From Jiangella alkaliphila (GTDB lineage Bacteria > Actinomycetota > Actinomycetes > Jiangellales > Jiangellaceae): 64,000 bases of DNA. The stretch spans positions 1,488,001-1,552,000 of the forward strand of contig NZ_LT629791.1 of the NCBI RefSeq assembly GCF_900105925.1. The letters run 5' to 3'. The position numbers and the translations under genes were made by a program. Positions 38,904 to 48,636 of this stretch are shown piece by piece. The number at the start of each line of letters is the position of its first letter. The stretch's first letter is position 1. The notes beneath the pieces are model-generated. The model was not told the origin of the DNA and made no database searches. It saw only the letters and a program-made list of their open reading frames with translations.

Positions 38904-40268
38904 TCAGGCGCCGGCGGTCGGCGGCTCGGCCTGCTGCGGCAGTGCCCGCCGTACCGGCATCGTGGGCGCACCGGCTCCGTTGAGGCGGACGGTGTTGCGG
39001 CCGCCGTTCTTGGCCGCGTACAGCGCGGTGTCGGCCGCCAGCAGCAATTCGTCGAGGCTGCTGATGCCCTCGGCCGGGAAGATCGCCCCGCCGACCGACG
39101 CGGTGATGGTGACGACGTCGGCCGAGTCGTCGTTCCCGGGCGGGTCGAGCACCACCGACTGGATGCGGCGGCGGATGCGCTCGGCCACGCGCTGGACGTT
39201 GTGCTCGTTGCCGACCTCGGGCAACGCGATGACGAACTCCTCGCCGCCCCACCGGCCGCAGGCGTCCTCGTCGCGCACCTCGGCGAGCAGCTCCTTGGCC
39301 ACGGACCGCAGGACGCGGTCGCCGAACGGATGACCGTAGGTGTCGTTGATCGCCTTGAAGTGGTCGAGGTCGACGATCAGCAGGCCCATCGTCCGGCCCC
39401 GGTTGCGGGACTGGGTGAACGCCTGCTCGGCGTACTCGTGCCACCACTTCGCCGTGGTGAGGCCGGTCTTGGCGTCGAACCGGGACGCCTGTTGGTACTG
39501 GTGCACGAGCAGGCCACGGTGCAGCGCGACCATCGCGACGACGACGCCCGGCAGCACGAACGGGTTGTTCACGACGACGGCGGCGGTGACGAGACCGAGG
39601 CCGAGGGCGCCCGCCTCGAGGACCTGTTCGCCGATGTTCGAGAAGAGGTCCCGCGCCCGGGCGGTCGGGCTGGCCAGCGCGATGGCGACCAGGACCAGGC
39701 CGAGGTTGATGGCCCACCGGAGGACGCCGGCGGCGGCGATGACGCCGAACTCGGCCAGCCCTTCCATGCTCGCCGCGCCCGGAGCGCCGGGGTAGCTCGC
39801 CATGCCGACCTCGAGGACGACGACGGCCGCCTGGGTTCCGCACAGCACGGTGGCGCAGGAGAACACCCAGCGGTGCGGCAGCCCGGGTCGCGCGTGTGGC
39901 TTGATGCGCCACCAGGCGAGGGTGTACGTCAGCACGACCATCAGCGAGGCGAGCAGCGGCGGCAGCACGATGACGGCGGCGAAACTCCACACGGACTTCG
40001 TGTCGATGTAACCCGATGTCGGACTTCGCCAATATTCCCGTTTACGCTCGATATGCCGCGTCAGCTCGATAGCGATCCAGGAGCAGCCCAACAGCACGCC
40101 GAACCGAACGAGGTCGCGGTCGTCGATCGGCACGAGCGTGGCCGTCGCTGAGCTCGCGAGGACCGAGGCCGCCACGATCACGACGATCAGGACGACGAGA
40201 GGCCTCGGCAGCTGCCACAGCGACCAGCTGCGACACCATCGCCAGAGTCTTCGAGTCAAGCCGTGCAC
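38904..40268 (-). CDS. membrane-bound diguanylate cyclase (GGDEF)
   Basis: 454 residues from a GTG at 40268. Six to eight membrane helices fill residues 20-250 in a MASE-like sensor region. The GGDEF domain follows: DAKTGLTTAKWWHEY, LLIVDLDHFKAINDTYGHPF, and the active site GRWGGEEF. An RDED lies five residues before the signature, matching the RxxD inhibitory I-site. It should make c-di-GMP from GTP with product inhibition. It starts 152 bp from the first unit of the micro-ORF array and points away from it. Confidence 0.9.
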   Translation of the reverse strand: MHGLTRRLWRWCRSWSLWQLPRPLVVLIVVIVAASVLASSATATLVPIDDRDLVRFGVLLGCSWIAIELTRHIERKREYWRSPTSGYIDTKSVWSFAAVIVLPPLLASLMVVLTYTLAWWRIKPHARPGLPHRWVFSCATVLCGTQAAVVVLEVGMASYPGAPGAASMEGLAEFGVIAAAGVLRWAINLGLVLVAIALASPTARARDLFSNIGEQVLEAGALGLGLVTAAVVVNNPFVLPGVVVAMVALHRGLLVHQYQQASRFDAKTGLTTAKWWHEYAEQAFTQSRNRGRTMGLLIVDLDHFKAINDTYGHPFGDRVLRSVAKELLAEVRDEDACGRWGGEEFVIALPEVGNEHNVQRVAERIRRRIQSVVLDPPGNDDSADVVTITASVGGAIFPAEGISSLDELLLAADTALYAAKNGGRNTVRLNGAGAPTMPVRRALPQQAEPPTAGA

Positions 40269-40420
40269 CCGCCCTTAGCTGTGCAGACTGCCGTACTTGC
40301 TGATCTTGCGCCACATCCTAACCCGAAGTGTCCACATCTGTCCCAACCCGGATGGGGACAATGAATCCGAAGTGGGACGATCCGGTTGGTTCTCGCGGCA
40401 CGAGTGGAGGGACGGTTTCG

Positions 40421-40444
40421 ATGCGTGACACGACGTGGCGTTGA
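40421..40444 (+). CDS. micro-ORF 1, heptapeptide MRDTTWR
   Basis: The only variant peptide: the last codon is CGT (Arg) where the others have AGC (Ser), and the second Thr is ACG. GGAGG at 40406-40410. It is also in frame with upstream ATGs at 40352 and 40361, so unit 1 could be the tail of a 27-30 residue peptide. Confidence 0.55.
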   Translation: MRDTTWR

Positions 40445-40490
40445 GCTGCTGGTGATGGCCGAGACGAGGCCCGGGAAGGAGGCGGTTGAG

Positions 40491-40514
40491 ATGCGCGACA
40501 CGACCTGGAGCTGA
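40491..40514 (+). CDS. micro-ORF 2, heptapeptide MRDTTWS
   Basis: AAGGAGG at 40476-40482, 8-nt spacer, ATG start. Arg is CGC, not CGT. The spacer sequence before it is unlike those of units 4-12. Confidence 0.6.
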   Translation: MRDTTWS

Positions 40515-40564
40515 AGTAGCCCCCGTGATCGAGGAGACGAGCTGTGGGAATGGAGGCGATCGCG

Positions 40565-40588
40565 GTGCGCGACACGACGTGGAGCTGA
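40565..40588 (+). CDS. micro-ORF 3, heptapeptide MRDTTWS, GTG start
   Basis: GGAGG at 40552-40556, 8-nt spacer, GTG start. Synonymous changes: Arg CGC and second Thr ACG. The swap of one bacterial start codon for another is strong support for translation. Confidence 0.62.
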   Translation: MRDTTWS

Positions 40589-40642
40589 AGCGGACCCGAC
40601 CTGGTGACGGAGGTGCCTAGGTGCTGGAAGGAGGGACTCGCG

Positions 40643-40666
40643 ATGCGTGACACGACCTGGAGCTGA
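40643..40666 (+). CDS. micro-ORF 4, heptapeptide MRDTTWS
   Basis: AAGGAGG at 40628-40634 and 8-nt spacer GACTCGCG, the form shared by units 4-8 and 10-12. Followed by the AGCGGACCCGACCTG-type spacer. Confidence 0.6.
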   Translation: MRDTTWS

Positions 40667-40720
40667 AGCGGACCCGACCTGATGACGGACGTACCGAGGT
40701 GCCGGAAGGAGGGACTCGCG

Positions 40721-40744
40721 ATGCGTGACACGACCTGGAGCTGA
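40721..40744 (+). CDS. micro-ORF 5, heptapeptide MRDTTWS
   Basis: First unit of the first four-unit block. Same ribosome-binding site and spacer as unit 4, followed by a type-A spacer (CCCGGAGCCCGTGGACCAG...). Confidence 0.6.
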   Translation: MRDTTWS

Positions 40745-40798
40745 CCCGGAGCCCGTGGACCAGATGACGACGAGCAGGTGTGGAAGGAGGGACTCGCG

Positions 40799-40822
40799 AT
40801 GCGTGACACGACCTGGAGCTGA
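40799..40822 (+). CDS. micro-ORF 6, heptapeptide MRDTTWS
   Basis: Second unit of block one; 78-bp period and identical sequence to unit 5, followed by a type-A spacer. Confidence 0.6.
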   Translation: MRDTTWS

Positions 40823-40876
40823 CCCGGAGCCCGTGGACCAGATGACGACGAGCAGGTGTGGAAGGAGGGACTCGCG

Positions 40877-40900
40877 ATGCGTGACACGACCTGGAGCTGA
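40877..40900 (+). CDS. micro-ORF 7, heptapeptide MRDTTWS
   Basis: Third unit of block one; identical to units 5 and 6, followed by a type-A spacer. Confidence 0.6.
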   Translation: MRDTTWS

Positions 40901-40954
40901 CCCGGAGCCCGTGGACCAGATGACGACGAGCAGGTGTGGAAGGAGGGACTCGCG

Positions 40955-40978
40955 ATGCGTGACACGACCTGGAGCTGA
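40955..40978 (+). CDS. micro-ORF 8, heptapeptide MRDTTWS
   Basis: Fourth unit of block one, followed by a type-B spacer (CGTGATCCCGGATGGACGAG...) that makes the period 79 bp and shifts every long frame across the array. Confidence 0.6.
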   Translation: MRDTTWS

Positions 40979-41033
40979 CGTGATCCCGGATGGACGAGGC
41001 GACGACGAGCAGGTGTGGGAGGAGGGACTCGCG

Positions 41034-41057
41034 ATGCGTGACACGACCTGGAGCTGA
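41034..41057 (+). CDS. micro-ORF 9, heptapeptide MRDTTWS
   Basis: First unit of block two. The ribosome-binding site reads GGGAGGAGG, 8 nt before the ATG; a type-A spacer follows. Confidence 0.6.
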   Translation: MRDTTWS

Positions 41058-41111
41058 CCCGGAGCCCGTGGACCAGATGACGACGAGCAGGTGTGGAAGG
41101 AGGGACTCGCG

Positions 41112-41135
41112 ATGCGTGACACGACCTGGAGCTGA
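41112..41135 (+). CDS. micro-ORF 10, heptapeptide MRDTTWS
   Basis: Second unit of block two, identical to unit 6, followed by a type-A spacer. Confidence 0.6.
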   Translation: MRDTTWS

Positions 41136-41189
41136 CCCGGAGCCCGTGGACCAGATGACGACGAGCAGGTGTGGAAGGAGGGACTCGCG

Positions 41190-41213
41190 ATGCGTGACAC
41201 GACCTGGAGCTGA
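41190..41213 (+). CDS. micro-ORF 11, heptapeptide MRDTTWS
   Basis: Third unit of block two, identical to unit 7, followed by a type-A spacer. Confidence 0.6.
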   Translation: MRDTTWS

Positions 41214-41267
41214 CCCGGAGCCCGTGGACCAGATGACGACGAGCAGGTGTGGAAGGAGGGACTCGCG

Positions 41268-41291
41268 ATGCGCGACACGACCTGGAGCTGA
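41268..41291 (+). CDS. micro-ORF 12, heptapeptide MRDTTWS
   Basis: Fourth unit of block two. It has the synonymous Arg codon CGC and is followed by a type-B spacer, giving an 81-bp step to the last unit. Confidence 0.6.
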   Translation: MRDTTWS

Positions 41292-41348
41292 CGTGATCCC
41301 GGATGGACGAGGCGACGACGAGCAGATGTGGGAAGGGAGGCGGTTGCG

Positions 41349-41372
41349 GTGCGTGACACGACCTGGAGCTGA
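41349..41372 (+). CDS. micro-ORF 13, heptapeptide MRDTTWS, GTG start
   Basis: Last unit. GGGAGG at 41335-41340, 8-nt spacer CGGTTGCG like that of unit 2, GTG start. After the stop there is no further unit; the convergent MFS gene ends 50 bp on. Confidence 0.62.
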   Translation: MRDTTWS

Positions 41373-41422
41373 CGCGACGCCGGGTGCCGGTTCGACCGAG
41401 CGCGCCCGGTGAGCTGGTGTCG

Positions 41423-42667
41423 TCATTGGTTCGGTCCTGGTGCGTGGTGGTGCGCGTGGGCAGGCCCCATGCGGGCCCATCGCACGGCTGCGGTGGTCGC
41501 GACCAGCGTGCCCAGGACCGCTGCAACGGCGATCACCGTCGACGGTGGGACGAGTTGGGCGAAGAGACCTGCTACGACGATGGCGAAGCCTTGCGCCGCA
41601 CGCAGCGCGGCGATGGCCAGGCCGACGGCCTGGCCACGCAGATGCGGCGGCACCGCCTCGACGTAGGTGGCTTGAGTGATCATGTCGTGCGCGGAGAACA
41701 CTCCGCTGAGCGTCCACAGCACCACCGAGGCGGCCAGGACTGGTGTCCACGGGGTCGGGATGAGGATCGCGCTGCTCGCGACGGCGAGCGGGCCCATGAG
41801 CGCGAGTCTGCGGTCCGGCCGCACCCGTCGTAGGAGGAGCATGCCCAGGAACGTGCCAACGGGATTGGCCGCGAGCAGCCAGCCGACCGCCGCGGCGTCG
41901 GAGCCGAGCTCGGCGGCGTACGGAACGGCGAGACCCTCGGGCACGACATAGAAACCGGAGCAACAGGCGATCGCGAGCAGCGTGAGCAGTCGCGAGTCGC
42001 GTGCCACGACCTGCCAGCCGGCCCGGATGGTCGCCCACTGGCCGGGACGCTCCGCGCGGTCATTCTCCGCGGGAGGAGTCGGCCGGTGCGGCCGCATGCC
42101 CCGCGCGATCAGCACGGCAGATACGGCGAACGTCACGGCGTTGATAAGCAGCGCCGCGTGCACGCCCAGTTCGGCCACCAGCGCCGCGCCGGCGCCGAAC
42201 CCGACGACGAGGGCGGCCTGGTACGTCATCGAGATGATCCCCAGCCCCAGCATCAGCCGGTCGCCTTGCAGGAGGTCGGGCAGCGCGGCCTGGCGCGCGG
42301 CCGAGAACGGCGCCGCCAGCAGTTGCACGACGGCCAGCAGGCAGATCTGGCCGGCCAGCGGCACGCCGGGCACCGCCATCACGGCCACCAGCAGCGCCCG
42401 GGCGAGGTCGGTCGCCACCATGACGTCGCGGCGCGAGAACCGATCGGCCAGCCCGGCCAGTGCGGCGCCGCCGACGAGGTCGGGGATGTACGTCAGCGCG
42501 TAGGTGAGCGCGGCCAGCCCGGCGGACTCCGTCCGATCGAACACCAGGAGCGTGAGCGCCACGCGGGCGAACTGGTCGCCGATCACGGAGAGTAGGTGCG
42601 CCAGCCACAGCCAGCGGAACTCCGTCGCGGCGAAGACGTCACGGTAGGAAGCCGGGGATCCAGACAT
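41423..42667 (-). CDS. MFS transporter (MFS_3/enterobactin-exporter-like)
   Basis: 414 residues with twelve predicted helices. The N-terminus VFAATEFRWLWLAHLLSVIG and DQFARVALTLLVFDRT, then LAGLADRFSRRDVMVATDLA near residue 75, are typical of actinobacterial MFS_3 exporters. The C-terminus is His-rich (HAHHHAPGPNQ). Transporters of this group export siderophores, peptides or drugs. It ends 50 bp from the last micro-ORF, convergent with the array, so it is a possible exporter of the array peptide, but the opposite strand argues against simple co-expression. Confidence 0.85.
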   Translation of the reverse strand: MSGSPASYRDVFAATEFRWLWLAHLLSVIGDQFARVALTLLVFDRTESAGLAALTYALTYIPDLVGGAALAGLADRFSRRDVMVATDLARALLVAVMAVPGVPLAGQICLLAVVQLLAAPFSAARQAALPDLLQGDRLMLGLGIISMTYQAALVVGFGAGAALVAELGVHAALLINAVTFAVSAVLIARGMRPHRPTPPAENDRAERPGQWATIRAGWQVVARDSRLLTLLAIACCSGFYVVPEGLAVPYAAELGSDAAAVGWLLAANPVGTFLGMLLLRRVRPDRRLALMGPLAVASSAILIPTPWTPVLAASVVLWTLSGVFSAHDMITQATYVEAVPPHLRGQAVGLAIAALRAAQGFAIVVAGLFAQLVPPSTVIAVAAVLGTLVATTAAVRWARMGPAHAHHHAPGPNQ

Positions 42668-46401: not shown

Positions 46402-48636
46402 ATGAAGATGGACCCGGAGACCATGCAGCCGCTGCTCCAGTCGCTGGCCGAGGCGACCGAGAGCATCTCCGCAGACATCCTGGCGGTCGAGGGCGGCATG
46501 CCGATCGTGTCATGGGGCAGCGCCGCGGCCGCGGGTGTCGGCGGTGCGGGCATCTCGGCGATGCGCGACGCCATCCGTGAGCTCACCGCGCTGGTCGTTC
46601 AGCAGGCGGGCGACGGCACGGTCGAGTCGTCCGCGATCCCGGGTTACCAGTTGCTCGGGACCGCGCTGACTCACCACGACTTCCGCGGCAGCGTCTGCCT
46701 GGTCCGCGCGGGCACCCGTGAGTGGTCCGAGGAGGATCGCCGGCTGCTGGGAATGGCGGGGTCGCTGTGCGCGGCGGTCATGGAGACCAGCGAGATGCCC
46801 AGCCAGCACGGGCGGCTCGACGCGCTGGTCAGCTATGTCGCATCGGAGCTGATGGCCGTCACGGCCACCGACCTCGCCGAGACGACGTACCGCGTGCTGG
46901 GCGAGCTCGGCCGGTACTTCGAGGCCGACACCTGTCTTCTACGGCACAACGACCCGTCGCTGAAGGCCAGCGTGCTGGTCGACGAGTGGCCGCGCCGCGA
47001 GAACGTGCCCGACCCCGACCCTCTGGGCGTGGTCCCGTGGGACACCGACGACCCCATCTTCGCGATGATCAAGGACCTGCGCGATCCGTTCATCCTGCGG
47101 CCGGGTGACGGCCAGCAGGACTATCAGGACCGCGTCGAGGCAGGCTCAGGCATCCCGCAGGTGTCCATGGCCACCGTCCCCCTGATCCAGGGCGAGACCA
47201 CCCGCGGCGTCCTCGGGCTCATCCACTTCGGCGACCGCATCTGGACTCGGGCCGAGGTGCGGGCGCTGCGCGCCATCGCCTCGTTATTGGTGCAGCTCGA
47301 CGCCCGGGTCGCGGCCGAGGAGAGCCTGCACCACCATGCGTACCACGACGAGCTGACCGGGCTGTGGAACCGCCGGGCGTTCGTCGAAGATCTCAACGAG
47401 GTGCTGGCGGCCGATCCCCGGGCCCCGCTCGCCGTGCTCTTCGCCGACATGGATCGGCTGAAGACGGTCAACGACGTGCTGGGCCACACCGTCGGTGACC
47501 ACTTCATCCAAGGCGTGGCGCAACGGCTGCGCGACTCCGTCCGGCCCAACGACGTCGTCGCGCGGCTGGCCGGCGACGAGTTCGTCATCGTGCTGCACGA
47601 CATCGCGTCGACGTCGGCCGCCGAGCGGGCCGCCCGGCGCATCCTCGATCGTGTCGCCGTGCCGCTCGAAGTGGGTGGTCACGCCATCAGCCGCAGTGCC
47701 AGCATCGGCGTCGTGGTCAACGGGGACATGCCCAGCACGGTCGACGAGCTGCTCGGCAACGCCGATGTCGCGCTGCTCGAGGCCAAAGAGCGCGGTGGAG
47801 ACTCCGTAGTGGTGTTCAACGACGACCTCCGATCCAAGATCCTCGTGCGCGCCGACCTCGAGCTGCGGCTGCGCTCGGCCATCAGCAACAACGAGATGCG
47901 GCTGTACTTCCAGCCCGAGTTCGACCTCCGCGACGGCCGCATGACCGGCGTCGAGGCGCTGGTGCGCTGGCAGCACCCCGAGCGCGGGCTGCTCGCGGCC
48001 GAGGCCTTCATCTCCGTCATCGAGGAGATCAACCTGTCGGCCGAGCTGGGCCGCTGGGTGCTCGAGGAGGCCTGCCGGCAGCTGGCGGCGTGGAAGCGCA
48101 CGTCGCCGGTGCCGCCGCCGCTGGTCCGGGTGAACATCTCCGCCGGCGAGCTGATCAGCGCCGACTTCGTCGGCTTCGTCGCCACGCTGCTGGGCCGCTA
48201 CGGCCTGGCGCCGGCCGAGCTGGGCATCGAGATCACCGAGAGCACGGTCATGCGCGACATCGACGACGTGCAGGCCACCCTCAACGGGCTGCGCGGCCTG
48301 GGCGTCACACTGGCCATCGACGACTTCGGCACCGGGTACAGCTCGCTGGCTCAGTTGAAACAGCTCCCGGTCGACATCCTCAAGATCGACCGCAGCTTCG
48401 TCTCGGCACTGGCCGAGAGCAGTGGCGATCGCGCCATCGTCGCCGCGATCGTCCGGCTCGCCGAGGCCTTCAACCTGACCACGGTTGCCGAGGGTGTCGA
48501 GGACCCGGCGGCGGTCACGACCCTGCTCGACCTCGGTTGTTACCGCGCGCAGGGGTTCTTCATGTCCAAACCACTGCCTGCCCAGGTGGTACTGGAGCAG
48601 GCCCGCAACCCAGGAGTCCCGCTGCGTATGGTGTGA
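46402..48636 (+). CDS. GAF-GGDEF-EAL dual c-di-GMP enzyme (Rv1354c-like)
   Basis: 744 residues, soluble. A GAF-like sensor region spans about 140-310. The GGDEF domain has HDELTGLWNRRAFVEDL, and the active site is RLAGDEFVIVL with RPND five residues upstream as the RxxD inhibitory site. The EAL domain is complete: GVEALVRWQHP, DDFGTGYSSLAQLKQLPVDI, LKIDRSFV, VAEGVED and QGFFMSKPLP. Both synthesis and hydrolysis of c-di-GMP are possible. It starts 16 bp after the moeY-like stop, and bldD, a c-di-GMP effector, follows 212 bp downstream. Confidence 0.92.
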   Translation: MKMDPETMQPLLQSLAEATESISADILAVEGGMPIVSWGSAAAAGVGGAGISAMRDAIRELTALVVQQAGDGTVESSAIPGYQLLGTALTHHDFRGSVCLVRAGTREWSEEDRRLLGMAGSLCAAVMETSEMPSQHGRLDALVSYVASELMAVTATDLAETTYRVLGELGRYFEADTCLLRHNDPSLKASVLVDEWPRRENVPDPDPLGVVPWDTDDPIFAMIKDLRDPFILRPGDGQQDYQDRVEAGSGIPQVSMATVPLIQGETTRGVLGLIHFGDRIWTRAEVRALRAIASLLVQLDARVAAEESLHHHAYHDELTGLWNRRAFVEDLNEVLAADPRAPLAVLFADMDRLKTVNDVLGHTVGDHFIQGVAQRLRDSVRPNDVVARLAGDEFVIVLHDIASTSAAERAARRILDRVAVPLEVGGHAISRSASIGVVVNGDMPSTVDELLGNADVALLEAKERGGDSVVVFNDDLRSKILVRADLELRLRSAISNNEMRLYFQPEFDLRDGRMTGVEALVRWQHPERGLLAAEAFISVIEEINLSAELGRWVLEEACRQLAAWKRTSPVPPPLVRVNISAGELISADFVGFVATLLGRYGLAPAELGIEITESTVMRDIDDVQATLNGLRGLGVTLAIDDFGTGYSSLAQLKQLPVDILKIDRSFVSALAESSGDRAIVAAIVRLAEAFNLTTVAEGVEDPAAVTTLLDLGCYRAQGFFMSKPLPAQVVLEQARNPGVPLRMV

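Follow-up and report, generated by a model that had tools for sequence, protein, structure and literature searches.

The window analysed here, a stretch of 64,000 nucleotides from the soil actinobacterium Jiangella alkaliphila, contains a tandem array of thirteen micro-ORFs, each led by its own SD sequence, which is located between a divergently oriented gene for a membrane-bound GGDEF protein and a convergent gene for an MFS transporter (Table 1). The array had been described in a first-pass annotation made from the DNA alone, and an ORF pattern scan of the window confirmed the positions of its thirteen heptapeptide ORFs, twelve encoding MRDTTWS and one MRDTTWR, all on the forward strand with none on the reverse. 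The two flanking genes were absent from that annotation, since comparison was needed to bring them into view. Each micro-ORF comprises 24 nt (a start codon, six further codons and a stop), with ATG used as start codon in eleven units and GTG in two, while TGA serves as stop codon in 13/13. The units differ by synonymous exchanges (CGT/CGC and ACC/ACG) and by a single serine to arginine substitution at residue 7 of unit 1, and follow one another at steps of 70, 74, 78 (eight times), 79 and 81 nt. Tandem Repeats Finder places the array at 40490-41373 with a period of 78. When the complete genome of 7,716,500 bases was searched with a degenerate version of the ORF pattern, all 13 matches fell within the array, and the reversed control gave 0. 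Upstream of the first unit a hexamer resembling a -10 element is present, of which ACAAT is conserved, as judged by eye, in 11/12 Jiangella alignments. Scans around the array for a sigma-70 consensus promoter and for a terminator found nothing, and as the former gave no promoter, the hexamer is considered only tentatively as a promoter element.

Table 1. Features of the micro-ORF array and its flanking genes (positions within the window).
Feature	Position	Strand	Remarks
Membrane-bound GGDEF protein	38904..40268	-	454 aa; active site GGEEF; divergent from array; constant partner, proposed receptor
GACAAT hexamer	40357..40362	+	-10-like, tentative; upstream of array
Whole array	40406..41372	+	13 SD-led micro-ORFs; first ORF starts at 40421
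Unit 1	40421..40444	+	MRDTTWR
Unit 2	40491..40514	+	MRDTTWS
Unit 3	40565..40588	+	MRDTTWS; GTG start
Unit 4	40643..40666	+	MRDTTWS
Unit 5	40721..40744	+	MRDTTWS
Unit 6	40799..40822	+	MRDTTWS
Unit 7	40877..40900	+	MRDTTWS
Unit 8	40955..40978	+	MRDTTWS
Unit 9	41034..41057	+	MRDTTWS
Unit 10	41112..41135	+	MRDTTWS
Unit 11	41190..41213	+	MRDTTWS
Unit 12	41268..41291	+	MRDTTWS
Unit 13	41349..41372	+	MRDTTWS; GTG start
MFS transporter	41423..42667	-	414 aa; convergent with array; proposed exporter

The pattern of change between units makes it almost certain that they represent peptide genes. Across 32 multi-unit loci, 42 synonymous and 10 non-synonymous codon variants were counted between units, where ~81 % non-synonymous changes would be expected without selection, with the proviso that the associated p value should not be taken literally, as some of the 52 variants are common to related species and thus partly dependent by ancestry. 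Where ORF lengths differ within a locus, only units of the most frequent length were counted (3/5 in G006a and 3/4 in G015_3). Eight of the non-synonymous variants affect residue 7 or later positions and two affect residue 4, while residues 2, 3, 5 and 6 have none. ATG and GTG starts are exchanged between units, and serine codons switch between AGC and TCC in paralogous arrays. The predicted SD pairing is strong, with energies between -9.3 and -12.8 kcal/mol for each unit of the window and a median of -11.1 kcal/mol for 156 units from many loci, against a background of -2.8 kcal/mol, 1 % of which is as strong. The comparison between units shows that selection acts on the peptide. The initial proposal that these are real micro-genes, which was based on synonymous change, start codon swaps and SD sequences that are conserved while the spacers drift, is thereby upheld, and the scoring of synonymous against non-synonymous change which it had put forward favours coding.

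It is highly improbable that no peptide gene exists and that the array instead constitutes a structural or protein-binding RNA, a series of DNA-binding repeats or the antisense of a gene for a repetitive protein. The recurrence of the GGAGG motifs and the minus strand, which is free of stops in at least one frame in 19/19 arrays tested, would accord with such an element. However, the length of 43/88 unit steps, measured at 19 loci, is not divisible by three, and the synonymous bias resides in the plus frame. A structured RNA element was rejected, as an Rfam search of the array yielded no match up to E 1 and seven folded units were no more stable than shuffled sequences, several being less stable (z -0.53 to 2.09). 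A repeat protein on the minus strand was likewise rejected; long antisense ORFs are present, but composition suffices to account for them. Triplets that would form antisense stops number 8, compared with 10.9 in shuffled sequences, 45/200 of which were equally low, and the antisense openness can be attributed to the T-poor spacers.

The array and both flanking genes are found in the same arrangement in 12/12 Jiangella genomes, with between four and thirteen SD-led units in each. The first-pass annotation had considered that relatives might retain the DNA and lose the frame; in these genomes the frames are intact and it is the peptide sequence that evolves. MRDTTWS is encoded in three of the genomes and MRDNTWT in five, while the remaining four encode, respectively, MRDNTWS, MRDNNWN, MRDVNWT with MRDSNWT, and MRDSNWT with MRDTNWNG and MRDTNWSE. 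Six of the twelve genomes also carry a second, paralogous GGDEF-array-MFS locus with two to six units of MRGNSWD, where the cyclases are about 50 % and the MFS proteins 60-65 % identical to those of the window. In four genomes (G002, G011, G001 and G010; loci L086, L087, L088 and L089, respectively) an SD-led, in-frame extension beginning MCD[GD]A lies upstream of unit 1 and reads into it, resulting in an ORF of ~26 aa that ends in MRDNTWT. The extension may be a unit that has decayed, or the whole may form a longer precursor. A further protein with GAF, GGDEF and EAL domains is encoded in the window at 46402-48636 on the forward strand, ~4 kb past the MFS gene, and a large ORF of 750-786 aa that contains a GGDEF domain occurs at most ~7 kb from the array locus in 12/12 Jiangella genomes, the domain composition being taken from the window copy.

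A search for the tandem pattern in actinobacterial genomes, as suggested in the first-pass annotation, gave matches in 18/393 genomes of the class, while in a sample of the phylum the window's own genome was the only one of 396 with a match. The strict single-unit pattern was found in 18 stretches of genome contigs, of which ten were inspected. Two of these are real, namely L038 of Jiangella muralis DSM 45357, with six pattern matches, and L022 of an Acidothermus MAG, where MRDTTWI is encoded beside a GGDEF gene; the other eight lack an SD sequence and appear to be chance matches. A phage origin was also rejected, the five tandem-pattern matches in viral contigs being without SD sequences by eye and likewise chance-like.

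The GGDEF protein of the window matches PF00990 (E 2.1e-38), and as the GGEEF motif was observed by eye in 27/27 of the cyclases inspected, the partner cyclase is probably enzymatically active. A profile of its membrane domain, built from 19 sequences, identified relatives in 93/393 genomes of the class, including 18/18 of those with the tandem pattern. The 1.3 kb upstream of the cyclase gene was scanned at 98 loci, leaving out three fragments and most matches weaker than ~E 1e-15, for SD-led micro-ORFs of 6-16 residues with a tryptophan within the final three. Such a micro-ORF was found on the divergent strand at 63/98 loci, compared to 1/98 on the opposite strand, and after exclusion of the 28 loci which were found through the peptide or used in setting up the search, the figures were 35/70 and 1/70. 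The peptides encoded beside the cyclases include MLRGVTWI, MSSGVQWV, MYNSVHWT, MRSIIWT and MRDTTWI. Multiple units were scored at 34 loci, one of which (G290) is a false pair, and among the 179 units counted, five peptides are out of place (G003a, four; G290, one) and one unit in G021 overlaps Ns. In other actinobacterial families there is often one unit per locus. At 35/98 loci the rule yielded no micro-ORF, although several weak cyclase matches begin inside the domain, so that the upstream region is possibly misplaced, and all of these scored negative. About four of the 35 loci have a variant form outside the rule, the variants observed being MAAGIQWV, MRNTHWTRA, MREIRWTREIRWTRA and MRDTQWTKR, and MRGVSWI is encoded upstream of the cyclase of G376, which lies outside the 98-locus count. 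Comparison thus shows a partnership of the micro-genes with one family of membrane GGDEF proteins that is frequent, but not universal, and the loci without a micro-ORF suggest that the cyclase can act without one or is otherwise paired. On a cyclase tree of 72/98 loci, with unit labels set by hand (four of them for variant forms outside the rule), the labels single, multi and none require 16 changes, so that units have been gained or lost repeatedly.

The membrane domain profile gave no match in the PDB up to E 10, and an AlphaFold2 model of the cyclase, made from three sequences, was of low confidence, with a mean pLDDT of 58.5 and the membrane part mostly below 50. The N-termini of the cyclases open this domain with W-x-L-W-x-x-P, often as RGWALW, with a faint likeness to the peptides (RGxxW) that could hint at mimicry. 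A single ORF contains the core twice at L171 and at L214 (MRDTNWVLRDTNWSW and MREIRWTREIRWTRA, respectively), as if RxxxW were a functional unit. An ABC-F ATPase resembling EttA is encoded beside or near the cyclase gene at 7/21 loci (L174, L176, L180, L188, L191, L194 and L198), the L188 copy having been named as EttA and the other six recognised by eye.

Where a genome contains two or more peptide loci, a different peptide is encoded at each (13/13 genomes), while the units within a locus are mostly identical. For example, the five loci of G030 encode MRGNNWT, MRSVQWA, MRGVNWV, MRGVKWA and MRGADWA/C, and three different peptides each are present in G015 and G017. In the linkage of the peptide gene to that of a putative receptor, and in a peptide private to each locus, these loci share the gene arrangement of peptide quorum sensing. 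The private peptides would fit ligand-receptor pairs that avoid cross-talk, with the cognate cyclase as the proposed receptor of each peptide.

The gene that follows the micro-ORF is convergent with it at 18/20 single- and double-unit loci, with gene calls made by a GC3 heuristic, and likewise in the window, which indicates that the micro-ORF is a gene of its own and not a leader. A function in translation, whether as leader peptides or attenuators, a sensor of tRNA-Trp, or an array of minigenes that sequester ribosomes or peptidyl-tRNA, is accordingly very unlikely, even if short ORFs with very strong SD sequences and tryptophan as the most constant residue might bring such devices to mind. 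A leader peptide would be followed by a co-oriented gene under its control, and no such gene lies downstream at 18/20 of these loci or in the window; furthermore, the other residues are selected within loci and distinct between paralogues. The sequestering minigene suggested in the first-pass annotation finds no support, as several other families retain just one unit.

A gene of one MFS family adjoins 28/30 multi-unit loci, compared with 1/27 single-unit loci and 0/16 loci without a unit, a count that excludes the window, four loci whose flanks were short and those with flanks of 1.5 kb, and in which the association is inflated by kinship, 17 of the 28 being Jiangella loci. The association is seen in the actinobacterial families labelled f1, f10 and f28, and in f7, which has one unit. 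Among the exceptional loci, the match at L128 is partial, the gene at L129 lies behind the cyclase, and L130 and L132 have multiple units without an MFS gene. Copy number is thus associated by comparison with the presence of the MFS gene, and this neighbour is suggestive of peptide secretion. Pfam and NCBIfam assign the MFS protein of the window to general drug and siderophore efflux groups, in all cases below the equivalog cut-offs, and a weak match to the peptide-export model NF041056 (E 9.6e-6) is far below its cut-off. Among the genes located at 28-54 kb in the window, only those for the GGDEF and MFS proteins were encountered again in other genera, if matches to the second GGDEF protein are set aside.

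The heptapeptide might also be the minimal precursor of a peptide natural product, such as a RiPP, that is modified at the tryptophan and exported by the MFS protein, with the cyclase merely regulating its production. Its size and MR start recall the precursors of the biarylitides (PMC13417212), and the MFS gene with its faint resemblance to a peptide exporter would suit this role. We nevertheless consider it unlikely, as no modifying enzyme recurs beside the arrays, judging by the recurrence of neighbouring genes in other genera. The residues before the tryptophan also differ freely between species while the cyclase remains constant, and single units are present without an exporter.

The simplest account of the copy number, the MFS neighbour, the private peptides and the apparently intact cyclase is that of a peptide signal which is read as c-di-GMP. 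The array would be a free-standing peptide gene of thirteen micro-cistrons, transcribed as a single plus-strand mRNA on which ribosome entry at every SD sequence would yield many copies of linear (formyl-)MRDTTWS. This heptapeptide would be exported by the convergent MFS protein and act as private ligand of the divergently encoded cyclase, whose membrane domain would sense the peptide level and change c-di-GMP accordingly. In the low-dose case of other families, one micro-gene would suffice and no MFS gene would be needed. From the gene content we infer that the array is transcribed and translated in the cell, that the cyclase binds the peptide, and that the peptide is exported and alters c-di-GMP; for the whole chain, from a short linear signal peptide through MFS export to recognition by its own membrane cyclase, we see about an even chance. 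Its main rival is an intracellular effector, where the peptide would bind the cyclase or its membrane domain in the producing cell and set its activity or stability, the MFS protein being unrelated. While this accords with the 26/27 single-unit loci that have the peptide-cyclase pair without an MFS neighbour, and with peptides that lack an export signal, it explains neither the presence of the same MFS family beside nearly all multi-unit loci nor the need for a dose of up to thirteen copies, and we regard it as less likely, though a serious alternative.

The first-pass annotation thus stands as regards peptide genes, and of the two functions it suggested, that of a precursor or signal peptide made in many copies is to be preferred, while the sequestering minigene and a kinship with the biarylitides are not supported and the partner genes had not been seen. 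More generally, the loci may represent an undescribed class of actinobacterial cell-cell signalling, in which leaderless hepta- to nonapeptides from free-standing micro-genes, in tandem with one SD sequence each where exported, are each read by their own membrane diguanylate cyclase as c-di-GMP, a proposal we make tentatively and rate at a little short of even. If true, this would add a family of peptide signals with genes of 24-30 bases, which escape annotation because of this short length, and would provide ligands for orphan membrane diguanylate cyclases, the signals of which are, to our knowledge, mostly unknown. The tandem array would represent an unusual route to a higher peptide dose, through many ribosome entry sites per mRNA. 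As cyclase, peptide and exporter adjoin one another, each step can be tested directly with cheap synthetic heptapeptides.

No such peptide-cyclase system was found in the open-access literature, outside of which most subscription papers fall. The pheromones of RRNPP and arbitrium systems arise by cleavage of longer pre-peptides that are exported, and cytosolic TPR regulators read them. The micro-genes resemble these in that a short, apparently unmodified peptide is private to the adjoining receptor gene and diverse between paralogues, but differ in that their ORF is leaderless and encodes nothing beyond the peptide, and in their pairing with a membrane diguanylate cyclase. Micro-genes for biarylitide precursors occur mostly in actinobacteria. 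The precursors consist of five residues encoded by 18-bp genes (PMC13417212), and bytA, like the units described here, is a tiny gene missed by annotation, with a precursor that often starts with MR and has an aromatic residue near its end. However, bytA adjoins a dedicated P450, while in the comparison of recurring neighbours no modifying gene accompanies the arrays, which is why the supposed kinship is left without support. Cross-linking in the P450-modified biarylitides further involves five residues with aromatics at positions 3 and 5, while MRDTTWS has seven with a single aromatic, and the array differs in having many identical copies that are each led by a separate SD sequence, and in the diguanylate cyclase as constant partner. 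In RpfR/BDSF quorum sensing, the PAS-GGDEF-EAL protein RpfR responds to the fatty-acid signal BDSF and no peptide gene is described (PMC13220807); what it would share with the loci described here is a cell-cell signal that is read directly by a c-di-GMP enzyme.
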